A DNA stretch of 64,000 bases from positions 124,001 to 188,000 of IMG/VR virus record IMGVR_UViG_3300046810_000338. One strand, 5' to 3'. Shown piece by piece: positions 7,909 through 18,677 of this stretch (position 1 is the stretch's first letter; the number at the start of each line of letters is the position of its first letter). The notes under the pieces are model-generated. The model was not told where the DNA came from. It ran no database searches and saw only the letters and a program-made list of their open reading frames with translations. Position numbers and translations under genes: made by a program. This DNA is from a virus.

Positions 7909-8493
7909 ATGGAAACTACCGACAGAGACTGTGTCCGTGTCATGGCGATAGACCCAGGGAGCCGATCCCTGGGTATCTCGATTGTGGACTGCTTTCTTCA
8001 CGAACAGGAACTGGTGTTGACAGAAGCTTGGACGCTCACGACTGAGCAAGCCTTGCGACGTCAACGCTTTAGAGCAGCACGCATTGGCGAGCATGCTGTG
8101 CGACTGGAAGCGATCTATACTGAAGTTCTTCATGGGTTGCAAACGTATTATCCAGATGCCGTCGTCATGGAAACCCCCTACCTGGGTCGGCTTCCACAGT
8201 CCTTCTTTGTTCTAACGCAGGTCATGACCTGCATTGAACGAGCGGTGGCAGATTACTCGTCTGCCATGTACTTGCAAAAGATTGACCCGGCTACTGTTAA
8301 GAAGGCAATAGGAGTCCCTGGGAACTCCTCTGACAAGGAACTAGTTAGACAAGCGGTGTATGCTTTGCCGAACTTGGAAAACCTCTCAGGACGCTCGCTG
8401 GAGAGTCTCAGTGAGCATGCCATTGACGGTACTGCCGTGGCGCATTACTACTGTGTATCCGAACTCGGGCTCAAATGGGTTAAGCCAACATGA
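7909..8493 (+). CDS. RuvC-like Holliday junction resolvase
   Basis: This 194-aa protein belongs to the RNase H/integrase-fold RuvC group. The first acidic residue sits in MAIDPGSRSLGISIVD (Asp15), the second in VVMETPYLG (Glu88), and the last in HAIDGTAVAHYY (Asp173, matching the HxxDA motif of RuvC). A basic VKKAIGVPGNSSDKELV segment at 130-147 also matches RuvC. Such enzymes cut four-way junctions by metal-dependent symmetric nicking; in phages they trim branched replicative DNA before packaging. Length is typical. It is the first gene of a coupled cassette: the next start (ATGA at 8490) overlaps its stop. Having a resolvase at the head of a lysis cassette is unusual. Confidence 0.9.
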   Translation: METTDRDCVRVMAIDPGSRSLGISIVDCFLHEQELVLTEAWTLTTEQALRRQRFRAARIGEHAVRLEAIYTEVLHGLQTYYPDAVVMETPYLGRLPQSFFVLTQVMTCIERAVADYSSAMYLQKIDPATVKKAIGVPGNSSDKELVRQAVYALPNLENLSGRSLESLSEHAIDGTAVAHYYCVSELGLKWVKPT

Positions 8494-9026
8494 TAGACAA
8501 ACTAAAGGGCTGGATCATTGGGGTATTGATCAGTGCCGTAATACTTGGAGGTGCGTTCTTTGGAGCAGCTTCTATCTACGGTACCTGGAAAGTGCACCAG
8601 TCACTCCAAAAGGTTGAAGAGACTCGGGTAGCGAACTTGGAAGAGAAATCGTTTGCCGAGGTGAATACAGAATTGGACGTGGCTAACAAAGCCATTGACA
8701 CCAACGCTGCAACTGCTAAAGATACATTAAAGGAGATCCTCCATGACGCTTCAGCCGAGAGTGACCAGCGGGAGCGCAAGGTTCCAGCCGCCGCCATTAT
8801 CAGCAGCAAAACCACGCCAGGCTCAGTCTCTGCGCCTGCCAAAGTTGAAACAGTGGCTCCTGTCCATCGTCCTAGTGGCACTACCCTGCGTACTATTGAC
8901 AGCGTGTGGGGGAACTACTGTGGAAACTTTCCAGACCAACCTGGTTGCGAAAACTACAAAGCTGGACAAAAAGACGTGTCTGCCAGTGCCACCGCCACCC
9001 CGGTCGCTGATCGAACAGTCAACTGA
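8490..9026 (+). CDS. Inner-membrane spanin (Rz-like)
   Basis: This 178-aa protein has an N-terminal membrane anchor (about residues 7-27, WIIGVLISAVILGGAFFGAA) and a predicted periplasmic domain rich in Glu, Ala and Lys that should form a coiled coil (about 35-90). A Pro/Ala-rich linker and two cysteines (GNYCGNFPDQPGCENY) follow. The decisive evidence is the next gene, which starts inside this one in another frame and encodes a lipoprotein; this nested layout is the hallmark of Rz/Rz1 pairs. Spanins fuse inner and outer membranes in the last step of lysis of Gram-negative hosts. The start overlaps the resolvase stop by 4 nt. Confidence 0.85.
   Translation: MIDKLKGWIIGVLISAVILGGAFFGAASIYGTWKVHQSLQKVEETRVANLEEKSFAEVNTELDVANKAIDTNAATAKDTLKEILHDASAESDQRERKVPAAAIISSKTTPGSVSAPAKVETVAPVHRPSGTTLRTIDSVWGNYCGNFPDQPGCENYKAGQKDVSASATATPVADRTVN
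8729..8735 (+). promoter_or_regulatory. Strong internal ribosome site for the o-spanin
   Basis: AAAGGAG lies inside the i-spanin reading frame, 7 nt before the ATG at 8743. It fixes the o-spanin start and supports real expression of the overlapping frame. Confidence 0.85.
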
Positions 9027-9620: not shown

Positions 9621-10889
9621 TTAGATGAACAGGTCTCGCTTGATATCCAAGATGGCCCCACGGCCAGGCTGTAGGCGGTGCAAGTTGGTACGCACTGAGT
9701 CTACGGCTGGAGCGTTATGCCATTGGATAGAATGCATGCGCAGCCGGTCGTGAATGCCATCTGGCACAATGACCACCCATTTGTCCCCTTCGTCTTCCAA
9801 CACGTAACTCATCAATCGCCCATCGTGGTGAACGGCTGGAGAGGTTACGGTTTCGTGGTGCAGGAACACACAAGGATGCTGTGTGGTTTCCAAAGGGATC
9901 TTGTCGCAATAGACGTCCGGCGACTGGACGGCAATGACAAACGATTGACTGGTGGTCAACAGTTCCAGCAGGAAGTTACGACCCTTGGACTCTGGTACAG
10001 AGATCATGGTGGGGGCCAGTGGGTTGGTGGAGATAGCCGCTCGGATACGCTGCAAGTCCAGATACTTCTCAGCCTTGAGGAAGTTCTCCAAGTACGGGTA
10101 GCGCAACAGGTTCAGTTCAAAACCTGAGTTACCGATCGAGCGGAACGTGCTGCCCAGTGGAATCAGGTAACCACACAGAGAGAGCATGGCCGTGCAGTTA
10201 TCCCAATCCACATCCTGTACGTTGAGATACAGCGGGGTGTCCAACGTGGCACCGTCTTCGGGCAGCCCTGTGATCATGCTTTCCACGATCGGATAGATCT
10301 TGCACCCCCCAAGAGGAGCCAGACTCACAATGCCCACCGAGTTGATCTTGGCTACCTGAGCAGACCGACCACCTTGCTTAACGTAGAGCCCACGTTCAGA
10401 GGAGTAGGTGCGATGCAGAAAGCCGTTGACTTCCACCAGTACGTTTGCCTCAACCAGTCCAGGGGAAAGCGTTGGGTGAGTCAGCAGTAGGTCTGTACGC
10501 TCAGAGAACGGCACTGTTGGATTAGGTCCAGCACCTGGGATAACTTCCTCTACTGAAAAGTTTGCTTCCAATGCGTTGGCGTACTTGGCTTTCACCGTCT
10601 TGGTTGCGGTGAACTCGACAGTAGGCAGTGCTTTGTTAGCCAGTGCAATGAACCAATTGGCAACGGTGATTGCCGAGAAGAAGGGTTGAACGAATGTCGC
10701 CCCATCCTGAGTGAAGTCGAAAAGGTATTGCACGTTGGGACTGGCATCGTGAGTCAAGATCATGCGGCTTTGACCATAAGTTGCAGTCAGTGTCCGAACG
10801 TCCGCTGCGAGGACTTCGGCCAGGTCAACTTCTAACCAGCGCATTCCATTGGCATTCACTTTGTGATAGAACTTTCTTAGCGTGTACAT
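9621..10889 (-). CDS. Probable virion protein, unknown function
   Basis: This 422-aa protein is encoded opposite to its neighbours and diverges from the 875-aa fibre-like gene. No enzyme motif, membrane helix or signal peptide is visible. The sequence is mixed alpha/beta with many hydrophobic strands and a final QPGRGAILDIKRDLFI. The start ATG at 10889 follows GGACCGGAAC. The stop codon TAA and the following CAGCATAAG form part of the bidirectional terminator at 9577. A structural role is inferred from location only. Confidence 0.7.
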   Translation of the reverse strand: MYTLRKFYHKVNANGMRWLEVDLAEVLAADVRTLTATYGQSRMILTHDASPNVQYLFDFTQDGATFVQPFFSAITVANWFIALANKALPTVEFTATKTVKAKYANALEANFSVEEVIPGAGPNPTVPFSERTDLLLTHPTLSPGLVEANVLVEVNGFLHRTYSSERGLYVKQGGRSAQVAKINSVGIVSLAPLGGCKIYPIVESMITGLPEDGATLDTPLYLNVQDVDWDNCTAMLSLCGYLIPLGSTFRSIGNSGFELNLLRYPYLENFLKAEKYLDLQRIRAAISTNPLAPTMISVPESKGRNFLLELLTTSQSFVIAVQSPDVYCDKIPLETTQHPCVFLHHETVTSPAVHHDGRLMSYVLEDEGDKWVVIVPDGIHDRLRMHSIQWHNAPAVDSVRTNLHRLQPGRGAILDIKRDLFI

Positions 10890-10992: not shown

Positions 10993-13620
10993 ATGGCAAC
11001 TGATCTCAACACTGTAACCCTCCCCTTCGACCGCTGGGGGACTGCCCTCACCAACAAGCGTGAAGGCGAACGGTACGAGCTGACCGCTGTAACGTGGTCG
11101 GAATTCAACATAATCATCCCGCAGTATGCCCCTTTTTACTCGGCCTCCATCGACTACCTCGTGCATTACCCTAGCGGTGACAAACTGTATCGTGGCATTC
11201 ACTGGATCGAAGGCTGGTACTACCAGTCCGCCTCCGGTGAGATCGGCCTGGACTTGCATTGCTGCATTTACTTCTACGATCCAACGCTGAGCGGGGAGAT
11301 TCTTATCCCAAGCTATCAGGCGATGGGTGGGGAGTGGCAACTCAACGGTATTCTGTTGACTCAGATCCTGGCTAACAAGCTGCTGAACCCACTGCGTTAC
11401 TACTGGGAACAGATTGCTAACCTGCCTGAGATCTTCAACCCGCTGGACCATGACCAGGATATCCAAGACTTCACCAAACTGGGTGACCTGATCGACGTTC
11501 TGCAAGACATGGCTCGTGCGATTGACAGCACCACCGGCGATGCCGGCGCTGACTTCCGTGCACACATGATCAACTACAACAACGTTCACCAGGTAAACAA
11601 AGCGCAGGTCGGGTTGCCGTTGGTTCAGAACTACGGCATTGCTACGGCTTCTGACATCGCTCAAGGTGTGATGACCTCAACGGTGTACATGAACCCACCG
11701 ATGACCAACCTGATGATCCAGCAGATTGCCATTGCTGCCCTGGCTCAACACACCGCCGACCAGACCAACAGCCACCATGTGACTGCTGCTCAAACCGGTG
11801 CGTACAGTCAGTTGGAAATCAACGCGATGTTGGAGTCCCTGGCCAACGGGTTGCTGTACAACATCAAAGCCTACCGTCTGGAAGGCAAAAGTGTTAGCGA
11901 CATCGTGACCATGGCCAAGGAGGATTTGAATGCCTCCATCGACGCCATCAGCAAGAACGTTCAGGCCATTGTGGACAACGTTCTCAAAGATGCTCAAGTT
12001 ACCAACGCCACTCGCTTTGATAACAAGACATCGGCTGAATGGAACGTACTGATTGCTCAGTCGGCCACCGACGTAGCAACTGGTTTGATCGCTACGAAGA
12101 TGGCTGCGCTCAGTGCTACCAACTGGACGTCGATTCCTTCCATCGAAGATCTGATCAACTTGCAGATCGCTGCGGCACCAAAAGATGCCAACGGCAACCC
12201 GATCGTGCTGAACCCGCTGAACGTGACGGATAAAACCGTCGTCTTCTTTGGCGAGTACACTGCGTTCAAAGCCAACGTGGTCAACGGTGCGACAGTGCTG
12301 GAGCCTAACCAGTTCCCGCTAACGATCCAGTACAAGGCCGTGGACACCGTAAGCGATCTGTCGATCCATGCCGAGGTCACGTATAACGCTGTCATGAAAA
12401 ATGGCACTGTCATTTACACGACCGTGCTGGCCAATCCAGAAGCGACCATGATCCCAGTGATCCGTCGTCACCCAACTGACCTTACCAAAGTTCAGGTGGG
12501 CATGCGTTGGGACGCATCGAGCATGCCAGAGATTGGCTATCAGGTCATGATGGGTGTGTCGATGTTCGCCAAACTGGCAGCACCTATCGCCTGGCACACT
12601 GACGCGGCTAACGCAGGTGTTATCACCTTGCCTGCCAACTACGTCGAAGTGGTCAAGCGGATTGAGTTGGTAGGGGATGCCTCGGGTGCTGGTAAGGACT
12701 GGACTGCCGACATCACTGCCCTTAAGAAGGCGCAGGATGATCTGAAAGCTTCGATTGGCGTCATTCAGGACGCCCTCACGCTGTTCAGTAAAAACGCTGC
12801 GACAATGGGTAACCGTGTATCCGCATTGGAACGACTGAACACCCGTAACCTGACGATGTTCGCTGCTGCGAGCATCACTGGTACGGCTGGGGTCAATGTG
12901 GCTCAACCAGTTCTGGGTTGGTTTGCAGAGGCGTTGGTTACAGCTGCTACTCCAATCACGATGACCTTCCAGTTGGACAAAGGTTACATCACCTACCGCA
13001 TTGCCTACGACTTCAATTCGGCAGTGCTGCATGCGGCGTCCGACCACGACGACCTGACTACCCGTCTGTTGCCGGTGGTTACTCTGGATAGTCGCACTGT
13101 TGACGGCGTTACCAGTCAGTACCTGCGTCTGGGTGCCATCAACTTCGATGCTGCCAAGCAACTGACCATGGTTAACATCGTGTCGGTGGGCACTGCGGTG
13201 ATGGTCTTGGCTGCCCCGGTCTACAGTAACGTTGTGGACTCCAGTGCAGTAACGGTTCCGCCTGGCTTCACGCTGACCAAGTTCAGCAGTGCAACTCGGG
13301 TAGAGCTGAATGCTGTGTCGATGGCGGTCACTCAGCTGACACCGGCAGTGATGGCGGGCGATTCCTCTATCTCGGCAGCTGACACGAACATCATTGACTT
13401 GAGTGTCTTGGATGAAACCGTGTTCGATGTAGCGCATCCTAAAGTGACGGTCAGTCTTCTGGACGACACCGTAGGTAGTGCGACCCATGGCATGTACATC
13501 AACTCTGAGGCGGTCATTGTTGTGGCAACCGATGGCACCGCGGTGTATCTGGTTAACACCGATCCGGCCAATGCAGTGGACTGTCGTTACCGGGTGGAAG
13601 TTCCACGACTTCCTGTTTAA
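10993..13620 (+). CDS. Large tail fibre or baseplate-associated protein
   Basis: This 875-aa protein carries the phrase NVHQVNKAQVGLPLVQNYGIATASDIAQGV at about residues 195-225. It is a version of the NPHQVTKAQVGLGNVDN motif common in phage tail fibre and baseplate wedge proteins. A related copy occurs in the next gene. The N-terminal third is beta-rich with aromatic residues. A helical region follows (about 290-380), then long repetitive Thr/Val/Ala strands toward the C-terminus, as in trimeric fibres. The start follows a GGAGTG site. Binding or connector function in the tail is inferred; the receptor cannot be predicted. Confidence 0.8.
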   Translation: MATDLNTVTLPFDRWGTALTNKREGERYELTAVTWSEFNIIIPQYAPFYSASIDYLVHYPSGDKLYRGIHWIEGWYYQSASGEIGLDLHCCIYFYDPTLSGEILIPSYQAMGGEWQLNGILLTQILANKLLNPLRYYWEQIANLPEIFNPLDHDQDIQDFTKLGDLIDVLQDMARAIDSTTGDAGADFRAHMINYNNVHQVNKAQVGLPLVQNYGIATASDIAQGVMTSTVYMNPPMTNLMIQQIAIAALAQHTADQTNSHHVTAAQTGAYSQLEINAMLESLANGLLYNIKAYRLEGKSVSDIVTMAKEDLNASIDAISKNVQAIVDNVLKDAQVTNATRFDNKTSAEWNVLIAQSATDVATGLIATKMAALSATNWTSIPSIEDLINLQIAAAPKDANGNPIVLNPLNVTDKTVVFFGEYTAFKANVVNGATVLEPNQFPLTIQYKAVDTVSDLSIHAEVTYNAVMKNGTVIYTTVLANPEATMIPVIRRHPTDLTKVQVGMRWDASSMPEIGYQVMMGVSMFAKLAAPIAWHTDAANAGVITLPANYVEVVKRIELVGDASGAGKDWTADITALKKAQDDLKASIGVIQDALTLFSKNAATMGNRVSALERLNTRNLTMFAAASITGTAGVNVAQPVLGWFAEALVTAATPITMTFQLDKGYITYRIAYDFNSAVLHAASDHDDLTTRLLPVVTLDSRTVDGVTSQYLRLGAINFDAAKQLTMVNIVSVGTAVMVLAAPVYSNVVDSSAVTVPPGFTLTKFSSATRVELNAVSMAVTQLTPAVMAGDSSISAADTNIIDLSVLDETVFDVAHPKVTVSLLDDTVGSATHGMYINSEAVIVVATDGTAVYLVNTDPANAVDCRYRVEVPRLPV

Positions 13621-13668: not shown

Positions 13669-14511
13669 ATGTCCATTCGGCCAGTCAAGTACGAAATTGA
13701 TAAAACCGGTCTTAACCCCAATAACTTGGTTCTCAATGAGGATCATGTTCTGCCGGCTTCGGGGAAACGCTTTCTTGTCACGGACAATGGACCGTTTTAC
13801 ACCCATTCTGTTGTTTTGACAGACATGGCGACTGGTCAGGTTCTGGCACCTAGAACACAGTACACCGCTATCCAGCTGGAAGAAGAAGCCACGCTGGAAT
13901 CGGGCAAAGAAGTTTGCTCTATTCTCATCATCGACGATGACACGGTCAGTGCTAACGTGATGGTCACCTACCAGTGCTATGGCGGCTGGATGAGTTATTC
14001 TGTTCGAGCCATTCTGGAGATGATCCAGAACCTTGATCTGGATAACCGGGTGATTGATTGGGGTATGATTGTTGGTGCCCCTGATCGTTATCCTCCAGCA
14101 CCTCACGCTCACCCACTGTCTGACATTTACGGTTGGAGCAAACTGTTCCCTGCCTTGAATGCCATCCGTGATGCCATTCTGCGTGGCGATGAAGCCAAGT
14201 TCGATGCTATCCGTACAAGCTTTGCAGCAGAGATTGCCAGACTTGAAGGGCGCATCAATGCAAACGACGGTATATTGCAGATCCACATTGCTGACCACGG
14301 CAACCCTCACCAGGTTGACAAGGCTCAAGTTGGCCTGCCTTTAGTACCAAACTTTGCCATGGCTACCAAGCTTGAGGCAACTGCCGGTGTCTTGGACACT
14401 CGGTTCATGAGCCCACTGCGTGTAAGTGATTCTGTCAACTACATCAACGATGGCATGTTGGCCGAACTCTCCGCGCTGTGCCAAAGTCTGACGGTGGTCT
14501 TCGAGGCATAA
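13669..14511 (+). CDS. Tail fibre or baseplate-associated protein with KAQVGL motif
   Basis: This 280-aa protein contains ADHGNPHQVDKAQVGLPLVPNFAMAT near residues 210-235, the same fibre or baseplate motif seen in the 875-aa upstream gene. A HAHPLSDIYGW segment precedes it at about 145; such His-rich turns are frequent in fibre connectors. A helix (RDAILRGDEAKFDAIRTSFAAEIARLEGRI) separates the two. The start follows AAGGG. It may interact with its larger neighbour in the same tail substructure; this is inference from the shared motif. Confidence 0.8.
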   Translation: MSIRPVKYEIDKTGLNPNNLVLNEDHVLPASGKRFLVTDNGPFYTHSVVLTDMATGQVLAPRTQYTAIQLEEEATLESGKEVCSILIIDDDTVSANVMVTYQCYGGWMSYSVRAILEMIQNLDLDNRVIDWGMIVGAPDRYPPAPHAHPLSDIYGWSKLFPALNAIRDAILRGDEAKFDAIRTSFAAEIARLEGRINANDGILQIHIADHGNPHQVDKAQVGLPLVPNFAMATKLEATAGVLDTRFMSPLRVSDSVNYINDGMLAELSALCQSLTVVFEA

Positions 14512-14514
14512 TCC

Positions 14515-15783
14515 ATGGAAAACCTGGCTGCTTACAAGTCAAGGTTCTCAGCGATGATTGAATCCCTCAAACGGTACGCTGAAGTCAGCGGTGCCGTTTG
14601 TTTGGATGGGGCTCGTAACTTTGTGGCCCAAGGTGAAACCCATACCTTCAACATCACGAACTACGACCGTTTCAGTACGTATGCGGTGACTACCAATCAG
14701 GGGTCGGTTACCCTGATTAAAGACACCATCACGATCACCACGTCCGCCACCTTAACCCCAGTTAATCCCTTTGTACTGACTGTTCGTAAGAACGGAATTA
14801 CGCGGGTGATTAATATGAAAATTGTCTCCATTGGGGTTTCGCCGATCGAGTTCATTGCTCCAACGCCGTTTCAGTTCATCGACGGCAACTCGACCTTGTT
14901 GTCGGTTAAGCCGTTCGATGTTTACCCAGCTGGCAGTCAAACGCATGTTAGTACGGATTGGCAAGTTTCTGCTGATCCCAACTTTATCAGCGTGGCCTTC
15001 CAGTCCATGGGTGACGCGGTCAACAAGCTTTCGATCAATGCACTTGGATTGCCTTACGGTACCAGGTTGTATGCTCGGGCCAGACACAATGGTAGTTCGA
15101 CCAATGCCGCTATCAATCAGGGCCCATGGGTTAACGTAGAGTTCAGAACAGGTCAGACTCGTTTGACCAATTTCGATACCAGTTGGGTCACCAGTTGGGA
15201 AGAAGGAATTCTGCGTCAAACCAGTCGCAACACTGCGTGGGACACTCAAGCTGAGCGCTTCAATCAAGACACTCAGCAATACGAGACCTACACCCGGCAG
15301 ACCAGTCGGACTACGTTGTTTGACACGGTTGAATCGTATCAACGACAGACTAACCATTACACTGATAACTTTACCGAATGGGATACGACCAAGCAGGTCT
15401 ACACCAGCTACCAGACTTCTCAGGTCACTGGTTACTGGCAGGCAGGCGGTCCGCGGTACAGTTCTTACGTGTCGGCTGTGGCCAGATACCAGTATGGTCC
15501 GCAAGGTGTCTTCGATGCCAACGGTAACCCAACTGGTGAAGTGATCATGGTCAACCAGTTCATGGGTTACGACTATGTGCCGGTAAACGTCTATGTCGGT
15601 CAGAATCCAGACTACTACGTGAGTTACAACACCGCCTATCAGGCAGGTCGTTGGACAGACTACATCACGCATAAAACGTCTGGCTATAAAGGCCAAACCT
15701 ACTACCTGACAGCAATTGATCCACGACAGACTAGTCGGGTCACTCACGCTACAACAGAGCGCTCTACCCGAGTCGATCCATAG
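14515..15783 (+). CDS. Fibre-like protein A, paralogue of 16771-18039
   Basis: This 422-aa protein has exactly the same length as the protein at 16771-18039. The two are similar from end to end: MENLAAYKSRFSAMIESLKRYAEV against MDNLTEYQSDFSAMVASLKRYAEV, and both share ETHTFNITNY. After an Ig-like region (40-110), residues about 145-212 look like a fibronectin type III domain ending VNVEFRTG. The C-terminal half repeats RQTSR(N/T)T(A/L)(W/F)DT at about 234 and 261, with related RQTN at 277 and RQTSR near 404. It is rich in Thr, Ser and Tyr. This suggests an exposed virion fibre or decoration. It starts 4 nt after the previous gene. Confidence 0.75.
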   Translation: MENLAAYKSRFSAMIESLKRYAEVSGAVCLDGARNFVAQGETHTFNITNYDRFSTYAVTTNQGSVTLIKDTITITTSATLTPVNPFVLTVRKNGITRVINMKIVSIGVSPIEFIAPTPFQFIDGNSTLLSVKPFDVYPAGSQTHVSTDWQVSADPNFISVAFQSMGDAVNKLSINALGLPYGTRLYARARHNGSSTNAAINQGPWVNVEFRTGQTRLTNFDTSWVTSWEEGILRQTSRNTAWDTQAERFNQDTQQYETYTRQTSRTTLFDTVESYQRQTNHYTDNFTEWDTTKQVYTSYQTSQVTGYWQAGGPRYSSYVSAVARYQYGPQGVFDANGNPTGEVIMVNQFMGYDYVPVNVYVGQNPDYYVSYNTAYQAGRWTDYITHKTSGYKGQTYYLTAIDPRQTSRVTHATTERSTRVDP

Positions 15784-15801
15784 GTCGGGGGGTAGAGTAA
15801 T

Positions 15802-15819
15802 GGGGGAGGCGACTCCCCC
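15802..15819 (+). terminator. Hairpin after fibre-like gene A
   Basis: A perfect 7-bp stem GGGGGAG / CTCCCCC with loop GCGA, followed by GTCTTTA. It lies between fibre-like gene A and the glycosyltransferase-like gene. Confidence 0.6.
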
Positions 15820-15834
15820 GTCTTTACCCACGGG

Positions 15835-16737
15835 GTGTTTACATTGAATCCAGTTGACCGTTTGTACCTAGGTTCCCCTCAGGCATCTGAAGTCTCCCGC
15901 ATTGGTCCCAATCAAAGGACCTGTGACAATGATGCCATTTTGGAGTTGGAGAAACTCATTGATCGGATGTGTCCTCTGGCCGTGACGTGCGATGCCCGTC
16001 CCTGCCACCCGCCATTCTTCGACGAATTCTGCTATACCGACATCCAGAATGGGTTGATGCTGCGCACGTTGTCGAGTGAGTTGAATGCTCGTTCGATGAT
16101 GTACGCTTCTAATCAAGAAGCTCGGGAAGCGTTTCCTATCGAGAAGGTTATCGATAAGTACGCATTGGGCGACAATGGCCGTAAGTATCGACGTGTCATC
16201 TTTTTGCCAGGCAACAACTCTGTGTCGTTCATCGACCAGAATCGCATGGCGCAACTGATGGCTACCGGGGATTGGTTTATTAAACCACATCCCGTCTGCA
16301 TTCCTGAAATGGTGAAAGACCTGGCCCGTGTATACGGCTACAGTCGCATCATTGAACCCAACGTATCTGGACATCGTCTATTGGTCGATGCCCAAGAGAT
16401 CGCCACCACCGCCGCCTCTGAGATGTACCTGATGGCAAGGCTGATGGACAAGCCGGTCCTCAACGTTGGGGCGTTTGTCAACCAACACCTAATGTCGTAC
16501 GATTCGATCGTTCGACTTCTGACCAATCGGGATACAGACAAGGCCATCATCAACCGTTGTTTGATGTCGGACTCCTCTGGCTATATTCGTCCCGAGTGGC
16601 CGCTGGAACTGAACCAGAAAATCATTGCCAACTACATCGACTTCGTCATGCACGAACGCGAGAAGTTCAGGATGGTCACCCAGCAGCGCCTGGTGGCTGA
16701 CACCTTTGAAGTTCGCAGTTGGCAGGGTAAGGTCTAG
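15835..16737 (+). CDS. GT-B glycosyltransferase-like protein
   Basis: This is up to 300 aa. The C-terminal half matches the donor-binding half of GT-B enzymes of the capsule-synthesis and CDP-glycerol transferase type. After a strand VIFLPGNN come FIKPHPV (about 144-150), then LLVDAQEIATTAASEMYLMARLMDKPVLNVG, which corresponds to the family pattern of an Asp, a Ser-containing loop, a helix and G/D-K-P-V. The N-terminal half is shorter than in cellular enzymes. The start is uncertain: GTG 15835 sits in a GGGGTG stretch that could instead be the ribosome site for TTG 15844. Being flanked by two paralogous fibre-like genes suggests glycosylation of those proteins. Activity is unproven. Confidence 0.6.
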   Translation: MFTLNPVDRLYLGSPQASEVSRIGPNQRTCDNDAILELEKLIDRMCPLAVTCDARPCHPPFFDEFCYTDIQNGLMLRTLSSELNARSMMYASNQEAREAFPIEKVIDKYALGDNGRKYRRVIFLPGNNSVSFIDQNRMAQLMATGDWFIKPHPVCIPEMVKDLARVYGYSRIIEPNVSGHRLLVDAQEIATTAASEMYLMARLMDKPVLNVGAFVNQHLMSYDSIVRLLTNRDTDKAIINRCLMSDSSGYIRPEWPLELNQKIIANYIDFVMHEREKFRMVTQQRLVADTFEVRSWQGKV

Positions 16738-16770
16738 CGTTACAGATTTACTCACTATTGGGAACAGTCA

Positions 16771-18039
16771 ATGGATAATTTAACGGAGTATCAGAGCGAC
16801 TTTTCCGCCATGGTGGCATCGCTCAAGCGTTATGCCGAAGTGGCAGGTGCTGTGGCGCTGGACGGTTTGAAAGGCATCATTGCTGAAGGTGAAACCCATA
16901 CCTTCAATATCACGAACTATGACATCTTCAGCACCTACACAGTGTCCTCTAACCAAGGTACCGTGTCCATTGCCAAAGATGTCATCACCATTTCGACTTT
17001 GCCAGGCGTGCGGGTAATCAATCCGTATCTGCTTAAGGTAACCAAGAATGGGGTGCCGCGCACAATCGAGATGAAGATTGTGTCCACAGGTGTTTCGCCC
17101 GTGGATATTCTGGCACCGATTGCCATGGAAACCTTCGATACCAATGCCCTGACTATCCGCACGTCGGACTTCGCTGTTTATCCGGTTGGCAGCCAGACGC
17201 ATGTTTCGTCGGACTACCAGATTGCCAGCGACCCCGACTTTACCAACATCGTCTGGTCGTCGATGGCAGACACGGTTAACAAGACTGTCATCTTGGTTAC
17301 CGACCTGCCTTACGCTGAGAAGTTCTACATCCGAGCCAGGCATCGCGGTAGCAGCGCAGACGTGACTGCTAACTTAGGTGATTGGACCAGTGTGGCCTTC
17401 CGTACAGGCAAAACCAAACTGACCAACTTTGCCACCAGTTGGGACACCAGTTGGGATGTGGGTCGCGTCCGTCAGACCAGCCGTCAAACAGCTTGGGCAA
17501 CCGATGTGGTCAAGTGGAATGAAGATGCGCAGGGTTATCAAACCCAGCAGCGTCAGACAAGTCGCCTGACCACCTTCGATACTGTCGAAGCGTATGTTCG
17601 TCAGACCAATCATTACACTGACGACTACACCGAGTGGGACACCACCAAACAAGTCTACACCAGCTACACTGTCTCTCAGATGACGGGTTACTGGCAAGCA
17701 GGTGGTGTACGTTACTCCAGCTACATGAGCTATGGCCAAGAGCAGCATGCTCGCTACACGGGTATCCCTGGTATTCCTGGCGTGCCAGACACCGGCTCTG
17801 ACTGGATGACCATCTGGTACGAGAACAACGGTGGTAGTTTGGTGACAGTGCCTGTGGGTACTAACCCAGATGTCTACGTGAGCTACGCCACGGCGTACCA
17901 AGCGGGTAACTGGACCACGTACACCACCCGTAAGTCGTCTGGCTTCAAAGGCCAAACCTACTACGACACTGCGATTGCGACGAGCCAAACTCATCGCACT
18001 ACCAGTATTCAAACTGAACGCAATACTGACGCCATCTAA
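16771..18039 (+). CDS. Fibre-like protein B, paralogue of 14515-15783
   Basis: This 422-aa protein is a paralogue of fibre-like protein A with the same domain order: a conserved N-terminus, Ig-like strands with GETHTFNITNYD, an FN3-like domain ending VAFRTGKT, and RQTSR repeats in the C-terminal half. The best-conserved C-terminal block is QTNHYTD(D/N)(Y/F)TEWDTTKQVYTSY followed by GYWQAGG. The copies diverge in the segment after SSY, where this one has a Gly-Ile-Pro-rich insert (TGIPGIPGVPDTG). It probably forms a hetero-oligomer with, or an alternative to, protein A. The preceding ribosome site is GGGAACAG. Confidence 0.75.
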   Translation: MDNLTEYQSDFSAMVASLKRYAEVAGAVALDGLKGIIAEGETHTFNITNYDIFSTYTVSSNQGTVSIAKDVITISTLPGVRVINPYLLKVTKNGVPRTIEMKIVSTGVSPVDILAPIAMETFDTNALTIRTSDFAVYPVGSQTHVSSDYQIASDPDFTNIVWSSMADTVNKTVILVTDLPYAEKFYIRARHRGSSADVTANLGDWTSVAFRTGKTKLTNFATSWDTSWDVGRVRQTSRQTAWATDVVKWNEDAQGYQTQQRQTSRLTTFDTVEAYVRQTNHYTDDYTEWDTTKQVYTSYTVSQMTGYWQAGGVRYSSYMSYGQEQHARYTGIPGIPGVPDTGSDWMTIWYENNGGSLVTVPVGTNPDVYVSYATAYQAGNWTTYTTRKSSGFKGQTYYDTAIATSQTHRTTSIQTERNTDAI

Positions 18040-18053
18040 GGCTAGGAGCAGTC

Positions 18054-18677
18054 ATGTCTGTTGCACTGTCTGATTTCAACAAGAAGTTCATCATCACTCG
18101 CTACACCGGCATCGAAGCCGGTTACGTGAATGATCCATCCGATCTGGGTGGTGAGACCAACCACGGTATCACCAAAGGTTTGGCGACTCAGTACGCCGCT
18201 GACCTGAAAGCCAAGTTCGGTTGGGACGGCACCATGCGTAACCTGTCCACTGACGCAGCGTTCTATCTGTACGACGTTGAGTTCTGGGGCAAGATGCAGT
18301 TGGACAACGTCTTCAGTCTGCATCCTCTGATTGCCGACAAGATGTTCGACATCGGTATAAACGCTGGCAAGACGCGTTCGGTGACTTTCCTGCAAGAGTT
18401 CCTGAACGTCAACAACAACGGTCAGAAGCTGTACGCTGACCTCGTGGTAGACGGTGGGATCGGTACCAAGACCTTCAGTGCCCTGCAAGGCTTTGTTACT
18501 GCTCGTGGCAAGGATGGCCTAAAAACCCTCCTGCACTGCCTGATCGCTCGTCAGACCAGCTACTACACCGACATCTCGATGGCGCGTGAGGCTAATGAGC
18601 GCTTTACCTGGGGATGGTTCGGCAGAGCTTACAACTCAGCTGCCGATTACCAGGCACTCGGTTACCTGTACCACTAA
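18054..18677 (+). CDS. Endolysin, GH108-type N-acetylmuramidase
   Basis: This 207-aa protein carries the family signature at its N-terminus: IEAGYVNDPSDLGGETNHGIT (20-40), with the catalytic Glu at position 21 (EGGY in most members, EAGY here). The C-terminal half reads DLVVDGGIGTKTFSALQ, a short peptidoglycan-binding-like turn, and then the usual R-Q-(T)-Y-x-D region. GH108 enzymes cut the glycan strand between N-acetylmuramic acid and N-acetylglucosamine. There is no signal peptide, so release would depend on a holin. A strong AGGAGC site precedes the ATG. The endolysin lies about 8.5 kb from the spanin pair. Confidence 0.9.
   Translation: MSVALSDFNKKFIITRYTGIEAGYVNDPSDLGGETNHGITKGLATQYAADLKAKFGWDGTMRNLSTDAAFYLYDVEFWGKMQLDNVFSLHPLIADKMFDIGINAGKTRSVTFLQEFLNVNNNGQKLYADLVVDGGIGTKTFSALQGFVTARGKDGLKTLLHCLIARQTSYYTDISMAREANERFTWGWFGRAYNSAADYQALGYLYH

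Follow-up and report, generated by a model that had tools for sequence, protein, structure and literature searches.

A putative CMP-sugar-type glycosyltransferase encoded between two threonine-repeat fibre-like proteins of a phage

In a 64,000-nucleotide stretch of DNA from a giant phage (here called the window; positions 124,001 to 188,000 of IMG/VR record IMGVR_UViG_3300046810_000338), a gene for a protein with a predicted GT-B-type fold lies between the genes of two paralogous, threonine-rich fibre-like proteins, A and B. We consider it likely that this protein is a phage-encoded glycosyltransferase that uses a CMP-activated sugar to O-glycosylate threonine and serine residues in the fibre repeats, a proposal made without biochemical data or mass spectrometry of virions. 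The initial annotation had read the three genes as a self-contained unit for decorating a surface fibre. The unit of enzyme and fibre is supported by the predicted fold and by an association with Thr tetrads that is found in both search directions, while glycosylation itself still lacks mass-spectrometric evidence.

Organization of the locus and the fibre-like proteins

The three open reading frames that had been delineated in this region, of 422, 300 and 422 residues and all on the + strand, proved correct. The locus comprises the following features:

10993..13620, + strand: tail/virion structural protein, 875 aa, phiKZ-like (PHROG_2163 1.8e-51, PHROG_13857 7.6e-40)
13669..14511, + strand: tail/virion structural protein, 280 aa, ending 3 nt 5' of gene A (PHROG_2163 3.7e-77)
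14515..15783, + strand: fibre-like protein A, 422 aa (open reading frame, paralogy, Thr periodicity)
15160..15780, + strand: Thr-tetrad region of A, [R/W/Y/F]-x-Thr-[Ser/..], with three RQTSR motifs, the proposed glycosylation substrate (lag-4 Thr z 5.6)
15784..15834, + strand: strong RNA hairpin without a T-run, located in the gap between A and the enzyme gene (-31.3 kcal/mol, z -3.9)
15835..16737, + strand: 300-aa enzyme, predicted to be a KxHP-type (CMP-sugar) glycosyltransferase with a GT-B-type fold (PHROG, predicted fold, motif)
16282..16293, + strand: KPHP motif, proposed to bind CMP (K150, H152 and P153 invariant in 57/57)
16417..16422, + strand: S195-E196, proposed contacts to the CMP phosphate/ribose (E196 in 57/57; aligned with KpsC)
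16771..18039, + strand: fibre-like protein B, paralogous to A and also of 422 aa (open reading frame, paralogy)
17416..18036, + strand: Thr-tetrad region of B, with two RQTSR motifs (lag-4 Thr z 4.0)
18054..18677, + strand: endolysin (Glyco_hydro_108 and PG_binding_3 domain matches), 14 nt 3' of gene B and last of the late cluster

Gene A follows directly 3' of the phiKZ-like tail protein genes, and relatives of the 875-residue product are found in phiKZ-like jumbo phages; the presence of A and B in the virion is an inference. A scan covering nearly the entire 228-kb record gave one copy of the enzyme gene, the one between A and B; it starts with GTG at 15835, with an alternative in-frame TTG possible at 15844. 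The hairpin preceding it may be a partial attenuator or a processing site, a function that is likewise inferred.

The paralogy of A and B was confirmed by an identity of 57% over 419 aa, and the repeated RQTSR motif pointed out earlier is present in both. Synonymous sites between the two genes are saturated (pS 0.76, with a pN of 0.32), which indicates an old duplication under purifying selection and rules out that the duplication is an assembly artefact. Protein A consists of a short N-terminal helix, an Ig-like domain (residues ~36-105), a beta-rich middle part and the Thr-tetrad region (residues 216-422). The AlphaFold model of A, calculated from three sequences, had a pLDDT of 40 and was uninformative outside the Ig-like domain, the only part predicted with confidence. 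Residues 17-77 weakly match PHROG_8401, and a tblastn search with A against the phage collection gave no matches.

Threonines recur in both proteins with a period of four residues (lag-4 autocorrelation z of 5.4 for A and 3.4 for B over the whole proteins). The signal is confined to residues 216-422, was not found in tail-fibre controls, and is highest in A and B of all segments in the scan, which covered nearly all of the record. Of the 33 threonines in the tetrad region of A, 27 are kept in B, as opposed to 54% of the other residues.

Pairing of the enzyme with Thr-tetrad proteins in other phages

A search in related phages went well beyond what the initial annotation had called for: the pairing of the enzyme with a Thr-tetrad fibre recurs in unrelated phages, whereas the triplet with a duplicated fibre was not seen elsewhere in the loci examined. 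There, usually one fibre is found per enzyme, and the A/B duplication is peculiar to this phage. The earlier suggestion that the duplication provides two differently modified or alternative fibres is conjectural. In the forward direction, non-redundant enzymes (<85% identity) with available upstream sequence were inspected for Thr-rich genes, defined by a Thr content of 25% or more over 60 aa; two loci (L030 and L062) were corrected by reading frame. All 26 enzymes had such a gene within two genes upstream, while only 5 of 176 other genes in the enzyme loci (2.8%) were equally Thr-rich. As many of the marine loci are related, the 26 loci do not represent 26 independent events.

The reverse search used a DNA pattern for tetrads and was blind to the enzyme. 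Mixed Arg/aromatic tetrads were found on seven contigs, each of which also has the enzyme, immediately downstream in six cases and elsewhere on the contig in one. A first pattern, WSN-ACN-WSN, mostly retrieved Ser/Thr microsatellite proteins without the enzyme and was kept as a negative control. Neither simple Thr richness nor the N-terminal domain of the fibre is the common factor: the enzyme was found in 0/80 loci whose Thr/Ser repeats were of other, mostly simple kinds and with 0/25 fibres that share the N-terminal domain but lack tetrads. Since the fibre N-termini vary among the groups, the tetrads are the common element.

The pairing was found in at least eight otherwise different phage groups, and the module is distributed over phiKZ-like phages, Autographiviridae, Straboviridae, Cr30-like and marine phages. 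Among them are Caulobacter phages Lullwater and Cr30 and Vibrio phages KVP40 and QD01; in Vibrio phages F86, D484 and D479 an unannotated tetrad open reading frame was located just upstream of the enzyme, as predicted. The Lullwater module lies directly downstream of a T7-type tail fibre, the KVP40 locus outside any tail cluster, and the Thr-tetrad proteins reach lengths of up to ~1,550 aa. The repeat proteins are gp41 in Lullwater, AGS81089 in Cr30 and gp0254 in KVP40. Some observations count against the proposal: the enzyme of Stenotrophomonas phage DLP_6 adjoins an Ig-repeat fibre without clear tetrads, and the repeat protein of Cr30 has little lag-4 Thr signal (z 0.4). When the window proteins alone served as queries, scans of viral contigs gave no match, and no relatives were found in the genome contig scan.

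These data also bear on the possibility that the enzyme modifies a surface glycan of the host, in seroconversion or superinfection exclusion, and adjoins the fibre because both are concerned with the same receptor. Its fold resembles that of LPS and capsule Kdo transferases, and phage glycosyltransferases that alter the O-antigen are known, for example in serotype-converting Shigella phages (PMC3636060). However, the enzyme tracks the Thr-tetrad sequence and not the type of receptor-binding domain, no sign of membrane association or export was noticed in it, and its gene sits in the late tail/lysis cluster of this phage. We therefore regard a host glycan as an unlikely target.

Fold, motifs and family of the enzyme

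The suggested GT-B-like nature of the enzyme agrees with its AlphaFold model, which has a GT-B-type fold (pLDDT 88, pTM 0.84) and so passes the structural check proposed with the initial annotation. The best solved matches of the model are WbbB (GT99; E 2e-5) and KpsC (GT107; E 2e-3), with low structural TM-scores of 0.3-0.45. With these proteins the enzyme shares a reduced N-terminal domain and a KxHP motif followed by a Ser/Glu loop; both the KPHP motif and the loop noted earlier, here SE...KPV, were found. Residues D53, K108, Y109, K150, H152, P153 and E196 are the same in 57/57 relatives, whose identities go down to ~20%, and position 195 is Ser in 54 of the 57 and Thr in the remainder. 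In sialyl- and Kdo-transferases, KxHP is reported to bind CMP (PMC12887879). The predicted model satisfies one criterion for GT-B fold CMP-sugar glycosyltransferases, a Rossmann-type C-terminal domain together with a (K/R)xHP motif; that the enzyme binds CMP and transfers a sugar is an inference.

The enzyme belongs to PHROG_26179 (2.5e-41) and PHROG_30602 (1.3e-8), both listed with unknown function. No family match exceeded the curated cut-off; the window protein gave none, and its relatives remained below threshold (PF05159, 16.5 of 20 bits; PF07922, 19.8 of 26.1 bits). Similarity to characterised glycosyltransferases is correspondingly weak, with PF05159 at 0.006 and, for the KVP40 member, GT52 at 5e-4, both below cut-off. 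HMM searches against the PDB returned only sub-significant matches, KpsC among them at E 0.5-1.

Identity to WbbB and KpsC is only ~13%, and in contrast to theirs the gene stands beside a fibre gene and not in a polysaccharide locus. Retaining Kdo transferases have a QxxxD nucleophile, which was not seen here at the level of sequence: where it is expected, the alignments show FLPGxN without an invariant Q or D. Because this nucleophile appears to be absent, the enzyme was not filed as GT99 or GT107. Position 69, Asp or Glu and 97% acidic, is near the end of a hairpin strand (64-70) of the model and might, without a superposition of the structures, correspond to the conserved Glu base that GT99/GT107 enzymes have in an N-terminal beta-hairpin. 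The inverting sialyltransferases of the (K/R)xHP type (GT29/38/42/52/80) share the CMP-binding motif (PMC12887879), and the weak GT52 match of the KVP40 member points to them as well, but the phage enzyme matches none above the curated cut-off and its catalytic base is not assigned.

The missing QxxxD motif would also suit a GT-B-fold protein without remaining catalytic activity that serves the Thr-repeat fibre as assembly factor or chaperone, and chaperones are often encoded next to tail fibres. Against such a role, the seven invariant residues are conserved as expected for a working active site, and the marine loci contain an extra GT29 sialyltransferase-like gene (Glyco_transf_29 4.8e-9), which fits sugar transfer. 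A non-catalytic function thus appears improbable.

Known DNA glucosyltransferases use UDP-glucose as donor, whereas KxHP is a CMP-sugar motif, and the partners of the enzyme are genes of Thr-repeat proteins in late/tail clusters. We give very little credence to hypermodification of phage DNA bases as by the T4 glucosyltransferases, even though this is a common role of phage glycosyltransferases (also PMC12619734). Modular exchange of tail genes is common and many marine loci are closely related, yet joint recombination of tetrad fibres and enzyme without functional coupling is hardly tenable, as enzymes of only 20-30% identity from podo-, myo- and jumbo phages retain the pairing despite changing fibre N-termini and neighbouring genes, and simple-repeat or tetrad-less fibres lack the enzyme.

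Proposed glycosylation of the fibres

If the enzyme glycosylates the fibres, as we propose, it would be dedicated to the flanking A and B and act during late gene expression. The sugar would be attached to Thr and Ser side chains within the [R/Y/F/W]-x-Thr-[Ser/Thr] tetrads, and it would most likely be an ulosonic acid (Kdo, pseudaminic or sialic acid) from the CMP-activated pool of the host; both acceptor and donor are inferred. Neither a CMP-sugar synthetase (PF02348) nor a GT2 was found in the phage's own record, and without the synthetase the donor must be host-derived. The outcome would be a tail appendage with a mucin-like coat, which may shield or stabilise it or tune adsorption.

Gram-positive serine-rich repeat glycoproteins have glycosyltransferases encoded in the same locus. 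They likewise combine a long Ser/Thr repeat substrate with a dedicated, neighbouring glycosyltransferase and a mucin-like product, but are bacterial surface adhesins modified by other enzymes, and the likeness was drawn without a homology comparison. Glycosylation of phage-particle proteins has few documented cases. In mycobacteriophages, phage-encoded glycosyltransferases are reported to place glycans on the C-termini of capsid and tail-tube proteins (Freeman et al. 2023, via PMC11256854, PMC12619734). The present enzyme is phage-encoded as well, its activity being inferred from fold and motif, but it differs in enzyme family, in the Thr-tetrad fibre-like partner and in the known hosts, which are Gram-negative. 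The literature search yielded no paper that had already described enzyme and tetrad fibre as a pair.

Because the pairing recurs in at least eight groups, phages of many kinds probably sugar-coat parts of their tails. If so, tail appendages of many environmental phages would be glycoproteins, with effects on adsorption, stability and immune recognition, and the enzyme would represent a new family of O-glycosyltransferases acting on a simple peptide repeat. A further generalisation is tentative and may well not hold: Thr-tetrad proteins carrying CMP-derived ulosonic acids could form a widespread class of mucin-like fibres, by which the tails of unrelated phages would present acidic sugars resembling those of the host, and marine phages could extend the glycan with the GT29-like and further enzymes. 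Further downstream in the marine loci, a gene for 315 aa matches nothing in Pfam or the PDB. The hypothetical-protein families PHROG_26179 and PHROG_30602 gain a specific, testable role with a recognisable acceptor repeat, and the module is present in the cultured phages KVP40, Cr30 and Lullwater.

The triplet and its repeat

Reading of the open reading frames confirms the arrangement proposed in the initial annotation, a glycosyltransferase-like gene between two duplicated fibre-like genes:

Window 14515-15783, plus strand: fibre-like protein A, 422 aa
Window 15784-15834: very stable hairpin (z -3.9) between A and the enzyme gene, without a T-run
Window 15835-16737, plus strand: GT-B-type glycosyltransferase-like protein (KxHP enzyme), 300 aa
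Window 16771-18039, plus strand: B, paralogue of A, 422 aa

The triplet is flanked by phiKZ-like tail genes on one side and an endolysin gene on the other and, judged by the tail proteins, its source is a phiKZ-like jumbo phage. Amid tail genes otherwise on the plus strand, a minus-strand ORF (window 9621-10889) has the same length as A and B, 422 aa.

With 57% identity, A and B are indeed paralogues. As the synonymous sites are saturated (pS 0.76, with a pN of 0.32), the duplication is inferred to be old and under purifying selection. The Thr/Ser/Tyr richness ascribed to both proteins is concentrated mainly in residues 216-422, where it forms a period-4 repeat of (R/Y/F/W)-x-Thr-(Ser/Thr) tetrads, the proposed glycosylation substrate. 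The lag-4 Thr signal of this region has z values of 5.6 (A) and 4.0 (B), compared with values near 0 for tail-fibre controls, and 27 of its 33 Thr are conserved between A and B, compared with 54% of the other residues. A scan of the window and the remainder of the 228,499-bp virus record, minus the last 0.6 kb, showed the lag-4 Thr signal to be strongest in A and B and the enzyme gene between them to be single-copy.

Association of the enzyme with tetrad repeats

Named phages with enzyme relatives are Caulobacter Lullwatervirus and Cr30, Vibrio KVP40-like phages and Stenotrophomonas DLP_6. A gene for a short Thr/Ser/Tyr/Arg repeat protein, annotated as hypothetical, lies immediately upstream of the enzyme in Lullwater and Cr30 and two genes upstream in KVP40 and QD01; the initial annotation had suggested searching related phages for the triplet. 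IMG/VR yielded 175 further relatives. Among the best 80 of these, essentially every locus with upstream sequence has a co-oriented Thr-rich repeat gene at the first or second position upstream of the enzyme, encoding a protein of up to ~1,550 aa in which Thr can reach 70% over 60 aa. For non-redundant enzymes (<85% identical), a criterion of at least 25% Thr in 60 aa within two genes upstream was met automatically in 25 of 26 cases and, after correct-frame reading, in the 26th (L030); in the same loci, 2.8% of 176 other genes (at least 100 aa) are equally Thr-rich. Owing to the kinship of the marine loci, the association counts do not represent independent events.

At least eight distinct contexts of the pairing were counted. 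The fibre N-terminus is Ig-like in the window and L017, PISLSDVN-type in L013 and L021 (with related forms in L011 and KVP40), YVNDSGTLR-type in the marine loci and KVWNGSA-type in L091 and L092, and no N-terminal domain is present in Lullwater and L067. The tetrads are the common element of the enzyme-linked fibres, while the N-termini differ.

The reverse search used a pattern of seven tetrads with Arg/aromatic-like first positions and took no account of the enzyme. Besides many low-complexity artefacts, it yielded seven contigs whose mixed tetrads were judged genuine by eye from the listing, without a preset rule. The enzyme lies just downstream of the tetrads in six of them (L281, L336, L278, L315, L266, L294), L281 and L336 encoding an identical fibre; in the seventh, L260, it is present elsewhere on the 35-kb contig. 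An earlier, looser pattern led mainly to simple Ser/Thr repeats, with the enzyme in 0 of its 80 loci. Of 29 loci sharing the PISLSDVN-type N-terminus, the enzyme was found in all four with tetrads, all contigs already known, and in none of the 25 without. Matching the prediction of the association, three Vibrio phages have an unannotated tetrad ORF immediately upstream of the enzyme, at a place where their database entries list either no gene or only small ORFs unrelated to it:

L245:2700-3450: tetrad ORF, phage F86
L246:2800-3450: tetrad ORF, phage D484
L247:2800-3600: tetrad ORF, phage D479

Exceptions were also observed. In DLP_6, the enzyme follows an Ig-repeat fibre without clear tetrads, the gene of which spans the record ends. 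Contig L269 encodes a protein (7942-9015) that contains consecutive Tyr-x-Thr-Cys tetrads as well as Tyr-x-Cys-Asn-Pro repeats, and no enzyme is present on its 11 kb. The Cr30 repeat protein is Thr/Tyr-rich and barely periodic. The KVP40 enzyme locus is outside any tail-gene cluster, hence a virion location is unproven there.

No earlier description of the enzyme family, the proposed acceptor repeat or their pairing was found in the literature searched, which excluded most subscription journals. In mycobacteriophages, capsid and tail-tube proteins of the virion are reported to be glycosylated (Freeman et al. 2023, as cited by PMC11256854 and PMC12619734).

Predicted fold and proposed active site of the enzyme

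By sequence, the enzyme falls into PHROG_26179 and, with a weaker match, PHROG_30602, neither of which has a known function. An AlphaFold2 model built from a 27-member alignment (pLDDT 88, pTM 0.84) supports the GT-B fold initially suggested; its top solved-structure match is WbbB, a GT99 beta-Kdo transferase (E 2.1e-5), followed by KpsC (GT107, 2e-3) and many other GT-B enzymes. Residues D53, K108, Y109, F123, L124, G126, N128, K150, H152, P153 and E196 are invariant across 57 distinct relatives. In sialyltransferases and retaining Kdo transferases, CMP is bound through a (K/R)xHP motif (PMC12887879). By fold and motif, the protein is a putative CMP-sugar-type GT-B enzyme, its activity being inferred. 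It has KxHP in common with the retaining Kdo transferases WbbB and KpsC, but their QxxxD nucleophile is not visible in the enzyme alignments, where the matching stretch is FLPGxN, and for this reason it was not filed in GT99 or GT107. The reaction may be an inverting one; candidate catalytic residues, by inference, are D53 and position 69, which is acidic.

Proposed mechanism

Given the observed gene order, A, the enzyme and B would be expressed late and co-directionally, with the hairpin possibly setting their ratio. The enzyme would bind a CMP-sugar via KxHP and S195/E196, as motif and fold imply, and, as inferred from the two-way association, attach the sugar in the cytoplasm to Thr/Ser of the A and B tetrads, either ahead of assembly or while it proceeds. 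The location in a tail cluster suggests that the particle is then fitted with coated appendages; shielding, stiffening or tuned adsorption as the gain is speculation. The search of the virus record for a donor-synthesis gene was negative. CMP-Kdo is near-universal in Gram-negative bacteria, and host CMP-Kdo would suffice as donor source.

Accompanying genes

Two further genes lie after the enzyme in the marine loci: a conserved one of 315 aa, the kind of which is unknown, and then, on the opposite strand, a GT29 sialyltransferase-like one (match 4.8e-9, above the cut-off). Among named phages, only DLP_6 has a relative of this GT29-like gene, and it is also among the few with the KxHP enzyme.

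L036:6671-8233, also L068, L085 and L094 (marine viral contigs): 315-aa gene and GT29-like gene
DLP_6 (KU682439), 1821-2699 and 115-119 kb: KxHP enzyme, relative of the GT29-like gene and two further genes annotated as sugar transferases
L036:5583-5795, L004:8535-8753, L244:1664-1837, also L013 and L011: small intervening gene

This small gene (~57-82 aa) recurs between the fibre and enzyme genes in many loci, is coiled-coil-like in KVP40 and DLP_6, and possibly encodes an adaptor or chaperone.
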